This document shows, piece after piece, positions 44,001 through 59,603 of a DNA stretch of 64,000 bases (its first letter is position 1; each line of letters starts with the position of its first letter). Origin of the DNA: Lachnospiraceae bacterium (GTDB lineage Bacteria; Bacillota; Clostridia; Lachnospirales; Lachnospiraceae); assembly GCA_022510615.1 (NCBI GenBank), contig JAFLTC010000012.1, positions 1-64,000 on the forward strand, written 5' to 3'. A program made the translations under genes and the position numbers. The notes under the pieces are model-generated. The model was not told the origin of the DNA. It did no database searches and saw nothing but the letters and a program-made list of their open reading frames with translations.

Positions 44001-45068
44001 ATGAAAAATGTTATTTTGGTAGTGGATGACGACAAAGCCAATTTAATGCGTGCACAGACAATCTTATCCTCAGACTACCGGGTTTCTGCCGCCAATTCCG
44101 GCAAAGCAGCATTGAAATATCTGGAAAACAACCGTCCGGATTTGATTCTTTTGGATATTAACATGCCGGAGATGGATGGTTTTGAGGTGATTGAGCAGAT
44201 TCGTCAGAACAAAGAAATAGCAGATATTCCTGTCATTTTTCTGACAGCGGATAATCAGGTAAATACCGAAATTAAATGTTTTCAGGCAGGGGCAATGGAT
44301 TTTGTCGGGAAACCTTTCGTGCCGGATGTTTTGAGAAGCCGTGTCAGCAAGGCGATTGAACTGGAACATTACCGCAACAACCTGGAACGAATGGTAGAGG
44401 AGCAGGCTGAGAAAATTACGGAAAACATGCGCCTCATCAGTCAAATGCAGGACTCCGTAATTGTTGGTATGGCGAACCTGATTGAGAGCCGGGACGGAAG
44501 TACCGGCAAGCACGTTAAAAATACTCAGATGTATGTCAAGATGATTGCAGATGAACTACATAAGCGGAATTTATTTCCGGAAGAACTGACGGATGATTAT
44601 ATTGAAAATCTCCGAAAGGCGGCACCGCTCCACGATGTGGGAAAGATTAATATACCGGATTCCATATTGAAAAAGCCCGGCAAGCTCGACGATGAAGAAT
44701 GGGAAATAATGAAATCCCATACCACCAAAAGCCGCAAAATTATTAAGATGATTATCGCCGATGTGGAAGATAAAGAGTATGTAAAGATGGCGGAAGACAT
44801 TGCCCTGTACCACCATGAGCGTTGGGACGGAACCGGATATCCCATGGGGCTCTCCGAAGAGGATATCCCTTTATCCGCACGGATTATGGCGGTGGCAGAT
44901 GTATTTGACGCTCTGTATGAAGAGCGGGTGTACAAGCCGCCGGTTCGTCCCATTGAGCGAATTGTCCAAATTATGATGGAGGGCAGAGGTTCTCAGTTTG
45001 ACCCAGTGATTATTGACGTGTTTGTGGAAATGATTCCACAGATGAAGATAACATTAAATTTGGAGTAA
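44001..45068 (+). CDS. Response regulator with HD-GYP phosphodiesterase output
   Basis: This 355-residue cytoplasmic protein has a receiver domain at about 1-120 (VDDDKANLM acidic pair, phospho-acceptor D52 in LLDINMPEMDGF, conserved Lys in GKPF) and a short coiled linker. The HD-GYP domain at about 150-350 has HD at 211-212 in PLHDVGKINIPD and HHERWDGTGYP at 271-281. HD-GYP domains usually hydrolyse cyclic di-GMP to GMP. It is first of three signalling genes; the receivers and histidine kinases downstream are its likely partners. All signature residues are present, so it should be active. Confidence 0.93.
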   Translation: MKNVILVVDDDKANLMRAQTILSSDYRVSAANSGKAALKYLENNRPDLILLDINMPEMDGFEVIEQIRQNKEIADIPVIFLTADNQVNTEIKCFQAGAMDFVGKPFVPDVLRSRVSKAIELEHYRNNLERMVEEQAEKITENMRLISQMQDSVIVGMANLIESRDGSTGKHVKNTQMYVKMIADELHKRNLFPEELTDDYIENLRKAAPLHDVGKINIPDSILKKPGKLDDEEWEIMKSHTTKSRKIIKMIIADVEDKEYVKMAEDIALYHHERWDGTGYPMGLSEEDIPLSARIMAVADVFDALYEERVYKPPVRPIERIVQIMMEGRGSQFDPVIIDVFVEMIPQMKITLNLE

Positions 45069-45130: not shown

Positions 45131-47950
45131 TTGGAAGATAAATATTATTATGACGAAAAAATTTTAATTAGAACAGAACGGGCAGTGCTTGGCATCGTTA
45201 CCTGCTATATCATCGCCCTATTTGTTTTGAGTCAGGTGTTTGGCTGGAATATATTTGTAAGGGAACTTATTGTTGTAATGGCCATTGCCTTGTGGATCAT
45301 TTGTGTCAAAAAATACCGGGGTTTTAAATACCGTGCGATATGTATCGCCGTTGTGTCCTGGATTAATTTTATTATCTATGCCGTTCATATTGACAATATT
45401 CTGTTATTAACTCCTATTATGTCGGGATTAATTATTCTGCTCAGTCTGTTTTGCAATCTTTCCATTGTCTATACGGGACTGATTATATCAAATCTGGTCT
45501 TTGTATACCACGGTTTAATCGTTCGGACAATCCCCCTTGAGACCGGCAATGATATATTTATGTTAGTCCTGCATATCCTTGCCAGTTTTGTAACCACATT
45601 TGTGGCAGTGATTATGATACGCAGCCGAACGGAAAACAGCTTGAAATTGTATAAAATCATCCGTAATCTGGAAATTGCCGAACAGGGCAGAGATGACTTT
45701 ATGGTAAATATGTCCCACGAAATCCGCACACCGATTAATGCGGTATGCGGTATGAGTGAGGCAATTTTACAGGAAAATATTCCGGAAAATGTCAGAAAAG
45801 ACGTGATTGATATTCAGACGGCCGGACGAAACCTTCTGGCTACGGTCAGCAATATTTTAGATTATTCGGAACTGCTGGGCGGGGAACTGGATCTGGCAGA
45901 AGAAAGCTACAACATTACATCTACGATTACGGATATTATCAATATGGCACTGACACTGGAAAACGGCAGACATCTGGAGCTGATTGTAGATTGTGATGCC
46001 AATCTGCCCAGTAACATGGTAGGCGACGAGCAGAAAATCCGTCGTATCGTCATGAATATGTTGGAGAACGCCATAAAGTTTACACATGAGGGAGGGATTG
46101 TAATCACCATTAGGAGCAGAAAAGAAAAATACGGAGTCAATTTAATAGTAAATATCAAAGATTCCGGTATCGGCATTGAACCCTCCGATCTGGAACAGAT
46201 ATTCACAACATATACGCAGGTGGATGCCAAAAGAAACCGGGAGGAAGGCGGTGCGGGCATTGGGCTTGCCATTACCAGAGCACTGGTTCGCAAGATGGGC
46301 GGATTTATCACAGTAAACAGCGAGCCCGGAATCGGAAGTGAATTTCAGCTTACGATTCCGCAAAAAGTGTTGGATGAATCTCCGATTGTTTCCATTCGAA
46401 ATAGGCAGGAATTCTTTACGGCATGTTATATTAATATGGATAAATACAATTATTCCATTATACGGGAAGGATATGAAAAAATTCTGTACCATATTGTAGA
46501 GCAGTTTGGTATTATGTTCCGGTTCTGCAAAAATCTTTCCGAGTTAAAACGGCGTTTGGAACATGAAAATTACTCCCACGTTTTTATTGGATGGGAAGAG
46601 TACAGTGAGGATAAAAACTTTTTTGAGGAACTGGCTCAAAAATGCAGTGTCGTGCTTATTCTGGATTACAGGCAGGAGGTGCGGGCCGGCAGCAACATGC
46701 TCCGTATCTACAAACCGTTTACCGTACTGTCCATCGCAGCTATTTTCAACGGTGGCAAAATTATTCAAAGAGATGACCAGTACGCAAATACACGTCACCG
46801 TTTTATTGCTCCCGATGCAAAAGTCCTCGTGGTAGATGACAATACCATGAATCTGAAGGTTATGGCAAGGCTCCTTCTGCCATACCAGATTAAGGTAACG
46901 CTGGCGGGCAGTGGTGAAGAGGCTCTGGATAAGCTGGATACGATGGACTTTGACTGTGTCTTTTTGGACCACATGATGCCGGAAATGGATGGCGTGGAAA
47001 CGCTGCACAAAATACGGCAGAAACCGGGGACCTATTTTCAGACACTTTCGGTGATTGCCTTTACGGCAAATGCTATTGGCGGTGCCAGAGAAATGTTTTT
47101 GTCGGAAGGATTTAATGATTTTATTGCAAAGCCTATTGAACTGAGCGTACTGGAGCGTATGCTGCGTCGGTACATACCTGTCCAAAAGCAGATTGCCGTT
47201 GACAATACACCGAAAAACTCCGTCAGGGTAGATGACAATGTGGCAGAGGTGCAGGACAGGCGTAACTCGGACAAAGAAGCACTGGTAGCGCTGGAGAGGG
47301 CCGGTATCGATGTTAAACAGGGAATTTCCTACTGCGATGATGAAGAAGGATTTCGAGAGATCCTCGGTATATATCATACTGAGGGTCCAAAGCGCAGGCA
47401 AAATATAGAGGAACTTTTTGAGGAAGAGAACTGGAAAGATTATGTTATTTTGGTTCATGCCCTAAAAAGCAATTCCAAGGGAATCGGTGCAAATGAAGTG
47501 GCGAATCTTGCTCTTGAATTGGAAATGGCGGGAAAAGAGGGGCGTACGGACTTTATTTTACAAAACCATGAAAAATTAATGGAAATCCATGATGCTCTGC
47601 TGGAAGTTCTTGATGGCAACGCATTTGTCTATCCCGACAGCAAACCGGATACCGCCCCCGCACTAAAGGCGCCGCAGTCATCGACAGTTTCACCTGTTGA
47701 TGAAGGAAGTTTTGATAAGGCAAGCTTTGATGAGCTGCTTGCACAGCTGACGGAAAAACTGGACCGTTTTGAAAACGATGAACTGGATCAATTGTTGGAT
47801 CGCTTAGCAAAATGTCCGCTGCCTGACGGGGGAGAACAAAAAGCTCCGTTTGCACAAGTTGCAGAGCGGATTCGGGAAAAAGTAAATGACTTTGATTTCC
47901 TTGCTGCATCGGATATATTAAATTCATGGAAAGAAGAGCGGAAAGGTTAG
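45131..47950 (+). CDS. Membrane hybrid histidine kinase with pseudo-receiver, receiver and HPt
   Basis: This protein is 939 residues long. About six hydrophobic segments (15-175) form an N-terminal membrane sensor without a large outside loop. HisKA follows with MSHEIRTPIN (H196). The ATPase domain has NMLENAIKF, DSGIGIE and GAGIGLAI. Residues about 405-560 look like a receiver fold that has lost its acceptor (FIGWEEY where DLVLMD is expected, but KPFTVL kept). A true receiver follows (D613 in FLDHMMPEMDG), then an HPt domain (H776 in VHALKSNSKG). The start is taken at TTG 45131, as no ATG stands before the first membrane helix; its ribosome site is weak (AAGGGACGG). The full His-Asp-His relay could hand phosphate to the REC-HD-GYP protein encoded 62 nt upstream. 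Confidence 0.9.
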   Translation: MEDKYYYDEKILIRTERAVLGIVTCYIIALFVLSQVFGWNIFVRELIVVMAIALWIICVKKYRGFKYRAICIAVVSWINFIIYAVHIDNILLLTPIMSGLIILLSLFCNLSIVYTGLIISNLVFVYHGLIVRTIPLETGNDIFMLVLHILASFVTTFVAVIMIRSRTENSLKLYKIIRNLEIAEQGRDDFMVNMSHEIRTPINAVCGMSEAILQENIPENVRKDVIDIQTAGRNLLATVSNILDYSELLGGELDLAEESYNITSTITDIINMALTLENGRHLELIVDCDANLPSNMVGDEQKIRRIVMNMLENAIKFTHEGGIVITIRSRKEKYGVNLIVNIKDSGIGIEPSDLEQIFTTYTQVDAKRNREEGGAGIGLAITRALVRKMGGFITVNSEPGIGSEFQLTIPQKVLDESPIVSIRNRQEFFTACYINMDKYNYSIIREGYEKILYHIVEQFGIMFRFCKNLSELKRRLEHENYSHVFIGWEEYSEDKNFFEELAQKCSVVLILDYRQEVRAGSNMLRIYKPFTVLSIAAIFNGGKIIQRDDQYANTRHRFIAPDAKVLVVDDNTMNLKVMARLLLPYQIKVTLAGSGEEALDKLDTMDFDCVFLDHMMPEMDGVETLHKIRQKPGTYFQTLSVIAFTANAIGGAREMFLSEGFNDFIAKPIELSVLERMLRRYIPVQKQIAVDNTPKNSVRVDDNVAEVQDRRNSDKEALVALERAGIDVKQGISYCDDEEGFREILGIYHTEGPKRRQNIEELFEEENWKDYVILVHALKSNSKGIGANEVANLALELEMAGKEGRTDFILQNHEKLMEIHDALLEVLDGNAFVYPDSKPDTAPALKAPQSSTVSPVDEGSFDKASFDELLAQLTEKLDRFENDELDQLLDRLAKCPLPDGGEQKAPFAQVAERIREKVNDFDFLAASDILNSWKEERKG

Positions 47951-47959
47951 GTGCATGTT

Positions 47960-50647
47960 ATGATAAAAAAAATACGTATGTTAATGCAGCCGCTTTTTGG
48001 CAGCAAACTGGATTCCCGGGAAAAAGTAGCCCGGATGATTATACTGATGTCCCTGACCACTGCTTCTATTGGTATATTTCAGGTTTTGGTTGATAACGAT
48101 GTCCGCCTTTTGTTTATTTCTCTGCCGATGGTTATTACGCCGTTTATTTCTTACTGGCTTATAACCAAATTCCATAAAGTGAGGCTGGCATCCTGGATTT
48201 TAGTTCTTATATGGAATCTCATACTGTTCCCTTCGATTTTTATTATGACGGGTGGTTTAAAGGCCGGGGCTGCGACCTGTTTTGTGATAGAGATAGCCTA
48301 TGTATTTTGGTTGTTTCAGGGCAAGGACTTTGTTGTGGCACTACTCCTCTCTCTCTGCAGTAGTGCGGTAGCTTTTTATATATCCTACCAATATCCTGAT
48401 TTATCAATTTCCTCTTCAGGGCGTTTATCCGGCTATATCGCCTCCTACACCACGATTCTTATGACAAGCTTCATTGTAGGTATTATGAGTAAATTTCAGG
48501 CGTCAACTTATAGGCAGGAGAAACATCGTGCGGAGGAACAGACAAAAGAACTGGAGCAGATGGCACGCTCCAAAGACACTTTCTTTGCCAACATGAGCCA
48601 TGAAATCCGCACTCCGATTAATACGATTATCGGATTAAATGAAATGACACTGCGGGAAGATATTTCCGATGAAATTGCGGAGAATGCCATCAACATCCAG
48701 AACGCAAGTAAAATGCTTCTGACTACCATTAATGATATTTTGGATTTATCCAAACTGGAATCCGGAAATATGGAGATTGTGCCGGTTCAATATGCCGTCA
48801 GTACTATGTTCAGTGATCTTGTGAATCTGATTTGGATTCGGGCCCACCAGAAAGAATTGGAGTTTAAGGTGGATATTGACCCGGAACTTCCATCCACTCT
48901 GTATGGCGATGAGGTAAGGATTAAGCAGGTTATCACGAATATGTTGACAAATGCCATAAAGTACACGGAGACAGGTTCTGTCACGCTGACGGCACAGGCA
49001 GAAAAGATTTCTTCCGGCACTATTTTACTGCGTATCTCTGTTAAAGACACCGGCAAGGGAATCCGAAAAGAGAATCTGGAGGATTTATTCAGTTCCTTTA
49101 AGCGGGTAGATGAAACCAAAAATCGTAACATTGAGGGAACCGGGCTGGGACTCAGTATTTCCAAGCAGCTTATGGACATGATGGGCGGAACCATTTCGGT
49201 AGACAGCGTGTATCACAGGGGTTCCACCTTTACAATAGAACTTCAGCAGGAGATTGTGAGTTCGCAGCCGATTGGCGTCATTGATTTCGCTGCACAAAGA
49301 CGAGTGAGAAACCGCGAAAAATATAAACATCAGTTCACGGCACCAAATGCTAAGGTGCTGGTAGTAGATGACAATCACATGAACTGCATGGTTGCGAAAA
49401 AACTGCTTCGTAGTACGGAGGTACAAGTGGAGACAGTGTCAAACGGCAAGGAATGTCTGAGTAAAACGGCAGCGGAAGCCTATCATGTAATCCTTATGGA
49501 TCACATGATGCCGGGAATGGATGGAGAAGAAACACTAAAGGCCATTCGCGGGCAGACAAAGGGATATTGCCAGAAAGTTCCGGTCATTGCTCTGACCGCC
49601 AATGTGATGTCGAATGCGGATCAGGTTTACAGGGATATGGGATTTGACGGTTATCTGGCCAAACCGATTAATGCCGCTCTGCTGGAAGCCAGTCTGCTGC
49701 AGTATCTGCCGGATGATCTGATTGAATATGTGGCAGAGGAAGATGACCTGACAGATATAGATGACATCAATGCCGTGAACCAGTTTAGCGGCGTGAAAAA
49801 ACGTAAGATTGCCATTACGGCCGACTGCCTCTGTGATCTGCCTCAAAATCTGCTTGATAAATATCGTATTTCGTTAATGTATTTCTATATTTATACAGCA
49901 GAAGGACGTTTTTGTGACATATCGGAAGTATCCTCTGACAGCTTGTTGGCATATCTCAAGATTGAAGGAAATCACGCCCACACTTCCACCGCTGAACCGG
50001 AGGAATACGAATACTTTTTTGCCAATGTGCTGGGGACAGCAGAACATGTGATTCATCTGACAGCCACCAGTGGTGTAAGCGACTCCTATACCAAGGCCAT
50101 GCAGGCAAGTAAAAGCTTTGACAATGTAACGGTAATTGATTCCAGACATGTCAGCAGTGGTCACGGCTTGATGGTTTTACAGGCCGCACAGATGGCGGAG
50201 GAGGGAAAAAGCGTACAGGAAATCTGCAATGCGATGACAAAGTTTAGCGATGTGGTATGTACTAATTTTCTTGTGCCGACTACAGAAACTCTATACCGAA
50301 ACGGAAAAGTCAGCGGTATCGTTCACAAAATCTGTACACTGCTCCGTCTGCATCCGATTCTTTATATGTCTCATAATAAATTAAAAGTTTGGAAAATTGA
50401 AATTGGAGACGTACAGCGTATAAACCGGAAATATGTAAAAAAGATTCTGCGCCACAAAAATCACATGGACCAGCGTATTTTATTTGTTACCCATGCGGGA
50501 TGTACCGTTCGCCAGCTGGATGAAATCATAGAGGAAATTAAAAAACATGCTGATTTTGAGCATATTGTCTTACAAAAAGCTTCTGCCTCAATTTCCAGCA
50601 ACTGCGGTATGGGAACATTCGGACTTATATATGTCAAAACAGACTGA
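47960..50647 (+). CDS. Membrane hybrid histidine kinase fused to a DegV lipid-binding domain
   Basis: This 895-residue protein has an N-terminal membrane sensor of about six helices (20-180), then HisKA with MSHEIRTPIN (H214). The ATPase domain has NMLTNAIKY, DTGKGI and GTGLGLSI. A receiver with D514 in LMDHMMPGMDG and a short acidic linker follow. Residues about 614-895 are a full-length DegV domain: ITADCLCDLP, TSTAEPEEYEYF, ATSGVSDSY, VIDSRHVSSGHG, and an RNGKVSG segment before LLRLHPIL. DegV/FakB proteins hold a fatty acid in a buried pocket. A kinase-receiver-DegV chain is not an architecture I know. ATG 47960 has AGGTG six bases upstream and follows the previous stop by nine nt; GTG 47951 is the alternative. 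It closes the three-gene cluster. Confidence 0.9.
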   Translation: MIKKIRMLMQPLFGSKLDSREKVARMIILMSLTTASIGIFQVLVDNDVRLLFISLPMVITPFISYWLITKFHKVRLASWILVLIWNLILFPSIFIMTGGLKAGAATCFVIEIAYVFWLFQGKDFVVALLLSLCSSAVAFYISYQYPDLSISSSGRLSGYIASYTTILMTSFIVGIMSKFQASTYRQEKHRAEEQTKELEQMARSKDTFFANMSHEIRTPINTIIGLNEMTLREDISDEIAENAINIQNASKMLLTTINDILDLSKLESGNMEIVPVQYAVSTMFSDLVNLIWIRAHQKELEFKVDIDPELPSTLYGDEVRIKQVITNMLTNAIKYTETGSVTLTAQAEKISSGTILLRISVKDTGKGIRKENLEDLFSSFKRVDETKNRNIEGTGLGLSISKQLMDMMGGTISVDSVYHRGSTFTIELQQEIVSSQPIGVIDFAAQRRVRNREKYKHQFTAPNAKVLVVDDNHMNCMVAKKLLRSTEVQVETVSNGKECLSKTAAEAYHVILMDHMMPGMDGEETLKAIRGQTKGYCQKVPVIALTANVMSNADQVYRDMGFDGYLAKPINAALLEASLLQYLPDDLIEYVAEEDDLTDIDDINAVNQFSGVKKRKIAITADCLCDLPQNLLDKYRISLMYFYIYTAEGRFCDISEVSSDSLLAYLKIEGNHAHTSTAEPEEYEYFFANVLGTAEHVIHLTATSGVSDSYTKAMQASKSFDNVTVIDSRHVSSGHGLMVLQAAQMAEEGKSVQEICNAMTKFSDVVCTNFLVPTTETLYRNGKVSGIVHKICTLLRLHPILYMSHNKLKVWKIEIGDVQRINRKYVKKILRHKNHMDQRILFVTHAGCTVRQLDEIIEEIKKHADFEHIVLQKASASISSNCGMGTFGLIYVKTD

Positions 50648-50675
50648 AAAACACCCCGGAAACCGGGGTGTTTTT
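50647..50675 (+). terminator. Strong terminator after the signalling cluster
   Basis: A perfect 13-bp stem (AAAAACACCCCGG, loop AAA, CCGGGGTGTTTTT) starts at the last base of the DegV fusion's stop codon; the A and T arms allow function in both directions. Confidence 0.9.
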
Positions 50676-50776
50676 CATCGTATAATAGGGTGGGAGTAGT
50701 AGTCACTAAGTAACTACTGGGTATATAATATCAGTAAAATGTGGCATAAAAATGTAATTTTTTAATTTTTTTTGAC

Positions 50777-55661: not shown

Positions 55662-58600
55662 CTAATCCTCTTTTTCTGTGATATCCTTTTTCCGATTTAA
55701 CAAATCATATATACATGGTACCACAAAAAGAGTTAAAAGTGTACCATAAATTAACCCGCCGATGGTGACAATCGCCATTGGTCTTGTCATGTCCGCACCC
55801 ATTCTGCCGCCAAAGGCCATAGGTATCAGACCGAGAACGGTAGTCATCGCCGTCATGAGAATCGGACGGAGACGGGTCCTTCCCGCATCCACTAAAGCCT
55901 CCCGTTTTTCCATGCCGCCCCGACGCAGCTGATTGGTATAATCCACTAATACGATACCGTTATTTACGATAATACCGGCGAGCATGACAAAGCCTATCAT
56001 GGCAATGACGCTGACGTCACTGCCGCTGATCCACAGGCCCATAAAGCCTCCGGTAAAGGCAAGCGGAATCGTAAACAATATGATAAACGGAGACAGTAAC
56101 GACTGGAACTGTGCCACCATAATTAAGTACATCAGCACGATGCCGAGGAACATCATGAGCAATACCTGCTCCATAGCTTCCGTGGTAGCCTCATCCTCAC
56201 CGTCAAACTCGACCGTATAACCAGCCGGTGGTTCATAGTCTGCCATGGCCTTCTTTACCTCGGCGCTGACATTGGTGACAATATAGTCCTCATTAATACC
56301 CGCAGCCACGGTCATATACCGCATCTGTCCCTCTCTCGTAATGGTATTCGGGGAGGCCACTGTCTGGAAGTCAGCAATCTTACTTAATTTTACCTTCTTT
56401 GTTTTCTGGGTCATGGAATCCGTATACTCCAGTTTCATTTTCCTTAAATCCGCCCGGGTCATTTCCTCATCTGAAGAATCACTGACATATACGCCCAAAT
56501 CGTCGGTGTCAGTGGAAACCGTAGAGGAGGATGACGCCTCCTGTACTTTGGCACTTACCTGCTGATAAACCTGTGCCACCGTCAGGGAATACTTCATCGC
56601 CTTTGCCTTATCTACCGTAATACGGTATTCCTTTCCGGCATCCTCTAAGCTGTTGTTAATATCCTCCAGACCTTCTACGCCTTCCAGTCGTTCCATGATA
56701 TCCTCGGTTATGCTCTGCAGCTTATCTAAGTCTTTTCCTTTAATATTAATTCTTACTCCTTCACCCATAAGCGCACTCATATCCATTGCCGAGGCATTGA
56801 CCGTCAGCTCACAGTCGAGGTCCTTCGTTTTTTCCGCAATCTGATTGGTAACCTCTTCATTGCTTAACTCTCTGTCTTCATTTAAAAGGATATATATTGT
56901 GACGGAATTTCCATCCTTTCCTCCGGTCAGCATGGACATGGAGGATCCGCTGCCGCTATAAGCACCTACCTTATCTACATCGGATACCTCCTGCATCCGT
57001 TTCATGGCCTCATTGGCAATTTCCTTTGTTTCTTTAAAGTCCTTATCCTCTTCTGTCGTGAGAGTTGCTGTCATCTGGGTACTTTCCATCTCCGGCATCA
57101 TGGACATACCATTTTGAATAGCAAGAAAGGCAAACAACACTAAAAATACAACGGAAGCTGCCAGCACGACTGCCTTAAAACGAAGCGCCTTCGCCAGTAT
57201 TTTTCCATAGCCCTCTTGTACCTTGCCGATCAATCGGAATTCCTTTTCATTGGATTTGCGCATCATACCGCCGGACATGGCCGGTACCAGTGTCAGAGCA
57301 ACTAACAGACTGGCGCCCAGCGTATATGCTAAGGTCAATGCCAAATCCACAAATAACTGCTTCGTAACACCCTCAGTAAAGATAATCGGTGCAAATACAC
57401 AAATGGTCGTCAGGGTAGATGCCACAATGGCACCTGCCACCTGTTTGGCCCCCTCCACTGCCGCCTTTTTCGTGGAATGGCCTTCCTTTTTCAGACGGAA
57501 AATGTTCTCAATGACAACCACCGAGTTATCCACTAACATTCCCACGCCAAGAGCCAGACCGGACAGGGAAATAATATTCAATGTCACCCCGCTGAAATAC
57601 ATCGCCACGATAGCCGCCACTACACTGAGGGGAATGGAGCATGCCACGATAATGGTCGGACGGATATCCCGCAGGAAAAACAACAGAATCAAAATCGCCA
57701 GTATACCGCCAAGAAGCAAATTCTCTAACACCGCATCCACGACTAAATCGATATAGACTCCCTGATTCATCAATATCGAAATACTCAGACCTTCATTATT
57801 TTTCTCCAGTTCTTCAAACTGGTCTAACAAATCATTGGTGACATCACCGGTAGAGTATCCCGACTGCTTCTGTATCGTCAACGCCACTGCCGGATTTCCG
57901 TTTACAACAGTGTAGACATCATCGGCATTGTTCGTTTCCGCAACGTCTGCCACATCTTCCAGCGTAATAGGACTCAGACCATCCAGATCCAGATCACAGA
58001 TCACAAGGTCCTTCATGTTATCTACGGATTCTATTTTATCCCCGACACGCACCAGATAGGAAGCATCCTCTTCTGCCACATAGCCGGAAGGCATGTCAAA
58101 GTTTTCCGCCTTTAAGATGTTTTCCACCATTTCCTTTGTAATCAGTTTTTTCAGGCTGACGCCTTCCTTTGTTGTCTTCTTGGTTTCCTTCATCTGGCTC
58201 TTTGCTTCCGTGAGTTTCTCAGAGCCGCTGTTTAACTGGGCCTCTGCCACACTAATCTGAATACTGGAGAGAATTTTTTGTTTATTTAACTGCTCCAGCG
58301 CCTCGGTGGTGGATACCTTACCGGTCTCCAGTTGTTTTTTTGCTTTGTTCAGCTTCTTGAGACCGGAAGTGATTTTTGCTTTCGCTTTCGTAATGCTCTT
58401 CTTATTCTTTTTCAGAGTGGCCTCCTGGGTATTTAACTGGGTAATACCAGCTTCCGTGGAGGCAATTCCCGATTCTACCTCAGCAAGCTTCGTGCCGAGA
58501 GTAGCCTCCGAAAGTCCCTGTTTCTTTAATTCCGCTCTAATTACCTGCAGCTGGGTCTGCACGGAGGTCAGTGCGGTAGTCAGTGACGCCGACGCATTGT

Positions 58601-59603
58601 CTCCCAATGCCTCTATCTGTTTTTTCAAGCTGGCTTCCTGTGATATCAGCTGATCCAGAGAGTTTTTCAGCGTCTCCAGCTGGGTTTTCGTCGTTTGCAG
58701 TGTTTTCAGTGTCGTATTCAGCTTTGTTTTATTTGCCGCAATGGTTGCCAGCCCGTTATTTACCTGCTTCTCGGTATTTTTCAGGGTAGTCTGCTGCTCC
58801 TTTACCTGCTTAATCTGCTCATCGATTTGCGCCAGACCATCTTTGATTTTTTCACTGGCATCCTTCAGCTTCGTCTCTCCTTTTGCCATTTTATCGGCGG
58901 CATCTTCCTTTTGGGAAGTAAGGGTGTTTTTACCATCCTTTAATTTCTTTTCATTTTTCTCTATTTCATCCTCGGCATCGGAAAGCTTGCCATCAATGGC
59001 CGCCTGAACCTTCTTGTTCATCTTGTCAATCTTATCCTGCTGTATGATGACATCAATTTTTTTCTGCACAGAACCGGAGGTATTTACGGATGCCACACCC
59101 TCTACACTTTCTATGTCCGGAATTATATCCTGATTTGCTTTTTTGGTAACTTCAGTGCTTTCCATGTTATCATAATCCAGTGCCGCTACCATAATCGGCA
59201 TCATGTCCGGATTCAGTTTCATAATCGTAGGACTGCCGATACCATCTGCCCATTGCGCCGTTATCCTGTCCAGACTTTCTCGCATATCTACAGTTGTAGA
59301 ACCCATGTCGGTACCATCGTTGAATTCCATAATAACCATGGACATATTACTGATGGACATGGACTGCACCATTTTCACATTATTAATTCTTGCCATCGCC
59401 TGTTCCACCGGATCGGTAACTGCCCTCTCTACCTCCTCCGGGCTGGCACCGGCATAGGTCGTCATTATAATGGCATAGGGAAACTCCATGCTCGGCAAAA
59501 AGTCCATACTCATATTCCGGAAAGACAAAACCCCCAGAACTAACGTTATTACTACCGCCACAAATACGGTGTATGGGCGTCTTACACTAAACTTCGATAA
59601 CAC
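55662..59603 (-). CDS. RND-family exporter with a ~285-residue coiled-coil insertion
   Basis: At 1313 residues it is about 270 longer than AcrB-type RND pumps. TM1 is at about 11-28; the PN1/PN2 porter region follows. At about 200-485 there is a Lys/Glu/Gln/Thr-rich coiled coil with heptad-like repeats, inserted in the docking-domain region before MVENILKAENFDMPSG. Then come TM2-TM6 with GLALGVGMLVDNSVVVIENI, in which the charged intramembrane Asp of proton pumps is present. The second half repeats the fold, with GIVLVDYTNQLRRGG. No membrane-fusion or outer-membrane partner is nearby. The coil may span the wall in their place. Start GTG 59603 has GGAGG seven bases upstream. Substrate unknown. 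Confidence 0.9.
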   Translation of the reverse strand: MLSKFSVRRPYTVFVAVVITLVLGVLSFRNMSMDFLPSMEFPYAIIMTTYAGASPEEVERAVTDPVEQAMARINNVKMVQSMSISNMSMVIMEFNDGTDMGSTTVDMRESLDRITAQWADGIGSPTIMKLNPDMMPIMVAALDYDNMESTEVTKKANQDIIPDIESVEGVASVNTSGSVQKKIDVIIQQDKIDKMNKKVQAAIDGKLSDAEDEIEKNEKKLKDGKNTLTSQKEDAADKMAKGETKLKDASEKIKDGLAQIDEQIKQVKEQQTTLKNTEKQVNNGLATIAANKTKLNTTLKTLQTTKTQLETLKNSLDQLISQEASLKKQIEALGDNASASLTTALTSVQTQLQVIRAELKKQGLSEATLGTKLAEVESGIASTEAGITQLNTQEATLKKNKKSITKAKAKITSGLKKLNKAKKQLETGKVSTTEALEQLNKQKILSSIQISVAEAQLNSGSEKLTEAKSQMKETKKTTKEGVSLKKLITKEMVENILKAENFDMPSGYVAEEDASYLVRVGDKIESVDNMKDLVICDLDLDGLSPITLEDVADVAETNNADDVYTVVNGNPAVALTIQKQSGYSTGDVTNDLLDQFEELEKNNEGLSISILMNQGVYIDLVVDAVLENLLLGGILAILILLFFLRDIRPTIIVACSIPLSVVAAIVAMYFSGVTLNIISLSGLALGVGMLVDNSVVVIENIFRLKKEGHSTKKAAVEGAKQVAGAIVASTLTTICVFAPIIFTEGVTKQLFVDLALTLAYTLGASLLVALTLVPAMSGGMMRKSNEKEFRLIGKVQEGYGKILAKALRFKAVVLAASVVFLVLFAFLAIQNGMSMMPEMESTQMTATLTTEEDKDFKETKEIANEAMKRMQEVSDVDKVGAYSGSGSSMSMLTGGKDGNSVTIYILLNEDRELSNEEVTNQIAEKTKDLDCELTVNASAMDMSALMGEGVRINIKGKDLDKLQSITEDIMERLEGVEGLEDINNSLEDAGKEYRITVDKAKAMKYSLTVAQVYQQVSAKVQEASSSSTVSTDTDDLGVYVSDSSDEEMTRADLRKMKLEYTDSMTQKTKKVKLSKIADFQTVASPNTITREGQMRYMTVAAGINEDYIVTNVSAEVKKAMADYEPPAGYTVEFDGEDEATTEAMEQVLLMMFLGIVLMYLIMVAQFQSLLSPFIILFTIPLAFTGGFMGLWISGSDVSVIAMIGFVMLAGIIVNNGIVLVDYTNQLRRGGMEKREALVDAGRTRLRPILMTAMTTVLGLIPMAFGGRMGADMTRPMAIVTIGGLIYGTLLTLFVVPCIYDLLNRKKDITEKED

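Follow-up and report, generated by a model that had tools for sequence, protein, structure and literature searches.

What does a DegV domain, the fold of the fatty acid-binding FakB proteins, do at the C terminus of a membrane-bound hybrid histidine kinase? The question is raised by an open reading frame (ORF) at positions 47960..50647 (+ strand) of the window, i.e., the whole 64,000-nucleotide stretch of Lachnospiraceae DNA analyzed here. To our knowledge, the signals of most histidine kinases (HKs) in gut Lachnospiraceae are unknown, and a FakB fold wired to a phosphorelay beside c-di-GMP enzymes provides a concrete candidate ligand class.

The fusion protein and its operon

The earlier note, made from the sequence alone, described this ORF as one uninterrupted frame encoding six membrane helices, a HisKA domain with the phospho-acceptor H214, an ATPase domain, a receiver (REC) domain with D514, and a complete DegV domain. 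The 895-residue frame is indeed continuous, and Pfam recognizes HisKA (48572..48766), HATPase_c (48905..49249), REC (49355..49690), and DegV (PF02645; 49805..50638, residues 616-893), all on the + strand. The protein thus has the HisKA, HATPase, and receiver domains of a hybrid histidine kinase with their key residues intact. The same residues are conserved in the relatives, with the HisKA His retained in 128 of 133 sequences, the N-box Asn in 129 of 133, and the receiver Asp in 129 of 129. Six membrane helices, spanning residues 19 to ~178 (48014..48493, + strand), are predicted in the full-length AF2 model, the sixth being weaker; hydropathy backs the stretch 23-144 but lends the sixth helix no support at the threshold used. 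The PF02645 match covers profile positions 1-279 of 280 with 157.8 bits against a curated cutoff of 27, and the predicted C-terminal fold, for which the earlier note had proposed a structural check, is over its full length that of FakB and DegV proteins (PDB 2dt8, 5uto, and 4x9x). The full-length model has a pTM of 0.40 and does not resolve inter-domain contacts. The best NCBIfam scores, far under the cutoffs, are those of BarA/TorS/LuxQ-type hybrid kinases.

The fusion ORF begins 9 bases past the stop codon of the gene for a partner hybrid kinase (45131..47950, + strand) that contains membrane helices, HisKA (H196), HATPase, a pseudo-receiver, a receiver (D613), and an Hpt domain (H776); these are Pfam assignments, except for the pseudo-receiver, which is labeled from its position and sequence. 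Upstream of the partner lies the gene for a REC-HD-GYP response regulator (44001..45068, + strand; Pfam Response_reg at residues 5-115 and HD_5 at 157-336). Its HDVGK and HHERWDGTGYP motifs are both intact, and its product is likely to provide a c-di-GMP phosphodiesterase output. The trio is transcribed from the + strand and is surrounded by genes on the − strand. A terminator-like 15-pair stem across the stop codon of the fusion (50645..50677, − strand) marks the probable end of the operon and also of the facing genes; it comes from a pattern scan only, which found 8 such sites in the region against a shuffle mean of 7.1. The promoter scan of the region gave 19 sites against a shuffle mean of 17.0 and was disregarded. 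Elsewhere in the window, the − strand gene at 55662-59603 encodes an RND-like transporter of 1313 residues with a long coiled-coil-like insert, recognized by eye, at approximately residues 195-480. Two weak partial PADLOC hits fall inside the kinase and receiver parts, and a defense function was rejected.

Conservation and phyletic distribution

The genome_contigs scan returned 36 loci, 34 of them with a DegV kinase (L041 lacks it, and L042 breaks off where its contig ends). Directly upstream of the DegV kinase, 33 of these 34 loci carry the REC-HD-GYP and partner genes, and the three conserved genes of the operon are all signaling genes. Could the fusion still be an artefact, with two genes joined by assembly or a frameshift? 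It is broken in 3 of the 34 loci (L013, L033, and L037), but the other 31 have one unbroken ORF, a second copy exists in the same genome, and the DegV part is under purifying selection throughout: in 8 close pairs, dN/dS is 0.047-0.094 for DegV, compared to 0.015-0.046 for the kinase core and 0.08-0.24 for the membrane part. An assembly join was rejected on the strength of the unbroken ORFs in other records, and the chance of an artefact of any such kind is practically negligible.

The genome of the window (G000; 2.1 Mb in 129 contigs, 88% complete) has four DegV matches, half of them free genes and half fusions. The other fused copy is found on another contig (C86; L005:5038-10767) together with genes for a lone REC domain and an HK-pseudoREC-REC-Hpt kinase, with no HD-GYP gene; close by, on the opposite strand, is a GGDEF gene truncated at the end of the contig.

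Whether the architecture recurs among relatives, as a domain search was meant to reveal, was clear from the family sample: the fusion is present in at least 71 of 397 genomes, with at most six candidates scored per genome and with a few ORFs cut by contig ends and one with an internal stop (G342) included. The profile of the fused domain matched 137 of the 397 genomes at E ≤ 1e-40; long frames scored above ~175 bits, whereas most free DegVs (~290 residues) stayed below 170 and some reached intermediate values. The 120 stretches fetched comprised the high-scoring group, some free relatives, and hits from the other samples. Fusions outside family f1 were found in two genomes of family f17 when the order was sampled (383 genomes, E ≤ 1e-50), and in the phylum sample (388 genomes, E ≤ 1e-50), all fusions identified among the matches listed belong to f1; the other matches listed in these two samples, of which a part was fetched, had frames of ≤580 residues. 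Most genome_contigs relatives carry names pointing to Lachnospiraceae. Two contigs filed under Gastranaerophilales and Alistipes (L009 and L010) contain the operon at 64-66% identity to the window protein and are probably mis-binned.

The probable two-kinase relay and its neighborhood

Pairs of adjacent kinases show a regular placement of the Hpt domain. Among 117 pairs, it is found in the partner only in 91 (including the exact duplicates L062 and L063), in the DegV kinase only in 22, in both in none, and in neither in 4, so that exactly one of the two kinases bears Hpt in 113. In three of the Hpt-less pairs (L052, L113, and L115), Hpt is encoded by an adjacent gene, and in the fourth (L140) the DegV ORF is cut by a contig end. 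These counts are not independent, as 21 of the 22 rows with DegV in the middle of the protein fall in one clade, and the Fisher test value of 4e-20, which ignores shared descent, was not used as a probability. Given that some clusters contain further Hpt genes (e.g., L103, L118, L121, and L124), the rule of one Hpt is true per pair, not per cluster. The pair count excludes 17 kinase-DegV ORFs with no recognized adjacent partner and 14 ORFs without a kinase domain. The former comprise cases of contig ends, split or broken partners, the proteins of L060 and L145 described below, and L079, where two tandem DegV kinases adjoin genes of the HK-REC-Hpt type. In the partners of the relatives, the HisKA His is kept in 129 of 129, the receiver Asp in 126 of 127, and the Hpt His in 98 of 99 sequences, while most of their pseudo-receivers lack an acceptor Asp where one would be expected. 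The proteins of L135 were left out of Pfam scanning.

The position of DegV varies. In the 135 ORFs with kinase and DegV domains, it is C-terminal in 110, in the middle in 22, and N-terminal in 3; it can follow the receiver, lie between receiver and Hpt, precede the membrane helices, form a separate gene, or be fused to Hpt without a kinase. Among the 14 ORFs that lack a kinase domain, five are stand-alone DegV genes adjoining a kinase and two encode DegV-Hpt proteins. The smallest form, L119, comprises REC-REC-HD-GYP, a single HK-pseudoREC-REC kinase, and DegV-Hpt as a soluble protein, and any phosphate exiting via that Hpt thus exits on a DegV protein; the Pfam Hpt score is under the cutoff for L119 and over it for L111. 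Several unusual forms were also seen. L060:4790-7378 and L145:5251-7863 encode HK-pseudoREC-DegV proteins; the Pfam scan of L060 found no HisKA, and this protein is perhaps a pseudo-kinase bearing DegV. L043:808-5544 encodes a 1578-residue protein with an N-terminal DegV, a dCache sensor, HK, REC, and Hpt.

Within 9 kb on the same strand, 54 of the 143 loci have a REC-HD-GYP gene alone (34 of these 54 being the window and its close relatives), 14 have REC-GGDEF alone, and 4 have both, which gives totals of 58 for REC-HD-GYP, 18 for REC-GGDEF, and 72 for either one; such nearness is a raw count, uncorrected for the frequency of c-di-GMP genes around unrelated kinases, and does not prove an operon. 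No response regulator was found in the stretch taken at 37 loci, a lone receiver only at 23, and only a receiver protein of 250 residues at 11. Such ~250-residue genes (L044:593-1351, L045:9396-10154, and similar ones) adjoin pairs with a middle DegV; the two that were scanned have the receiver in the C-terminal half and an N-terminal part of ~130 residues without a Pfam name. Both catalytic motifs are kept in 59 of 62 REC-HD-GYP proteins, REC-GGDEF genes were confirmed by Pfam in three loci, and the window genome has ten GGDEF matches. Where REC-HD-GYP or REC-GGDEF is present, the window included, the target of the relay is probably c-di-GMP.

The DegV lineage, its likely role, and known systems

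In a tree of 177 rows, calculated by a quick method and midpoint-rooted, 143 kinase-linked DegVs are separated from 34 others by a branch with an SH-aLRT value of 100. All members of this lineage among the rows examined are associated with a kinase or Hpt. Five DegVs that are encoded by a gene of their own, next to one hybrid kinase, diverge close to the base of the tree, which suggests that the association of DegV with kinases preceded the fusion; the separate DegV of L053 is a later split or frameshift.

In FakB1, a network of Thr62, Ser95, Ser171, and His270 holds the carboxylate of the fatty acid, while catalysis depends on Arg173 and FakA binding on Arg205 (PMC8892158). Pocket columns were assigned by alignment to FakB2. 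The place of His270 is occupied in the window by Asn881, and Asn is found there in 129 of 139 fused and 6 of 6 kinase-linked free domains, versus His in 21 of 22 canonical and 10 of 11 unlinked free ones; in the deduplicated sets (143 kinase-linked against 33 others), Asn accounts for 93% and 0%, respectively. Around Asn881, Ser875 and Gly883 are nearly fixed, and the Asp626-Leu627 core is conserved. The Thr62 equivalent is Ser or Thr in 120 of 139 fused domains and the Ser95 equivalent is Ser in 98 of 139; with these two sites kept only in part, some members may bind nothing. Ser171 is variable. A fatty acid or a similar compound is the candidate ligand suggested by the fold and by what is left of the carboxylate site, and Asn at the place of His270 hints at a changed head group. 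At the place of Arg205, the window has Ile815-Gly816, and Arg is retained in only 2 of the 139 fused domains, compared to Arg or Lys in 22 of 22 canonical and Arg in 11 of 11 unlinked free DegVs; the alignment is not exact here, 15 of the 139 having an Arg no more than one column away. Arg173 is replaced by Lys783 in the window; the 139 fused domains have Lys in 44, Arg in 41, and other residues in 54.

These data bear on whether the domain could still be in the service of FakA. Its fold is that of FakB, and Dak2 genes, with FakA and DhaL types counted together, occur in 383 of 394 family genomes. Nevertheless, the docking Arg is nearly always gone, free DegVs with all FakB residues coexist with the fusion in the same genomes (L164 of G338 and L165 of G112), and one genome listed as 100% complete (G180) has no Dak2 match and, with 6 of its 7 candidates scored, no DegV match besides the fusion. 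DegV thus seems independent of FakA, and service to FakA is highly unlikely. The window genome likewise gave no Dak2 match and no FakA-like_C match save a cross-match to its own DegV, which carries no weight, as Dak2 is present in the congener G108 and the window genome has a completeness of 88%.

The reading that we prefer, with a probability of roughly 55%, is that the window protein and its partner together make up a two-kinase phosphorelay with DegV as ligand sensor and HD-GYP, and hence c-di-GMP, as target. Both kinases would autophosphorylate and pass the phosphate to their own receivers; the shared Hpt would then hand it to the stand-alone response regulator, and in the window this would set the phosphodiesterase activity of HD-GYP and the level of c-di-GMP. 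DegV, no longer serving FakA, would act as a cytoplasmic sensor in which a bound, probably lipid-like ligand shifts the conformation and so biases the kinase, phosphatase, or phosphotransfer state, and the membrane helices would bring a second input. Gut bacteria with this relay may thus read an internal lipid-like molecule to set c-di-GMP.

The earlier note had left two mechanisms side by side: the bound fatty acid as the signal, or receiver phosphorylation controlling lipid loading. DegV as a ligand-binding input or gating module fits better than a receiver-driven output, because an obligate output should stay after the receiver, whereas DegV is found at several positions within the protein and also as a subunit with its own gene. 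Control of lipid loading for FakA agrees less well with the data, given the Arg205 and Asn counts and G180. An output could also act without FakA, with receiver phosphorylation opening or closing the pocket at the membrane, so that lipid is released to or captured from another acceptor. The usual slot of DegV, C-terminal after a receiver in 110 of 135 ORFs, is also typical of outputs and speaks against a sensor, and the kinase is located at the membrane, where FakB1 opens (PMC8892158). Such an output is nonetheless quite improbable, as DegV may also precede the membrane helices, separate the receiver from Hpt, or have a gene of its own, Arg173 is kept as Arg in fewer than a third of the domains and Arg205 in almost none, and the three conserved operon genes are all devoted to signaling. 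Alternatively, DegV might have lost ligand binding and become a structural part that docks the DegV kinase on its partner or holds Hpt. Its changed pocket residues, the adjacency of the DegV kinase to its partner in most cases (117 pairs), and the existence of DegV-Hpt proteins are consistent with this; yet loss of function should scatter the pocket, whereas a single replacement, Asn for His, prevails in the clade and is absent outside it, amid nearly fixed neighbors, and FakB stability depends on its ligand (PMC8892158). A purely structural role is therefore unlikely. What stands of the proposed lipid-linked phosphorelay is a real and conserved DegV-kinase relay architecture; its lipid link is a guess, the carboxylate site being altered.

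The sensor reading offers direct handles: Asn881 is a defined, testable pocket change, and the natural variants with DegV as a separate or Hpt-fused protein are simple enough for reconstitution. If true, DegV would join the list of signaling input domains, which could account for DegV proteins lacking FakA residues.

Compared to FakB/DegV proteins, with which it shares the full-length fold, the core, and mostly Ser or Thr at Thr62, the domain described here lies within a membrane kinase, has Asn for the pocket His, has nearly always lost the FakA-docking Arg, and forms its own clade. The HisKA-HATPase-receiver core is common to BarA/TorS/LuxQ-type hybrid kinases, in which we know of no DegV. 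DhaQ/DhaK of dihydroxyacetone kinase operons serve transcription control, in contrast to the phosphorelay here. The earlier note knew of no described kinase with a DegV output; no description of a DegV-kinase phosphorelay and no paper joining DegV with c-di-GMP was found in open-licence PMC papers, a set without most subscription papers and bioRxiv preprints. Among papers that merely co-mention the terms, the DegV passages of PMC3146951, PMC12688256, PMC9912610, and PMC3533761 contain no DegV kinase.

RpfC/RpfG of Xanthomonas is the nearest working analogue. It combines a membrane hybrid kinase, in the order kinase, receiver, and Hpt, with a REC-HD-GYP regulator, and the partner kinase and the 44001-45068 product have the same layout with an extra pseudo-receiver. 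In DSF quorum sensing, a fatty acid binds RpfC and activates the kinase directly (PMC5391125). The ligand site of RpfC is a 22-residue N-terminal region, unlike the cytoplasmic DegV domain that is the candidate ligand module here, and two kinases would share one Hpt in the present system. A tentative and rather doubtful scenario is that Lachnospiraceae took a FakB fold from fatty acid metabolism, freed it of FakA, replaced the pocket His by Asn, and turned a separate subunit beside a hybrid kinase into a fusion with a second kinase or Hpt. The relay of two kinases and one Hpt to c-di-GMP enzymes would then be gated by an intracellular lipid-like ligand, making it a Firmicute counterpart of RpfC/RpfG whose sensor is intracellular. 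All parts of this system belong to known families; what appears new is their combination and DegV as a novel candidate sensor.
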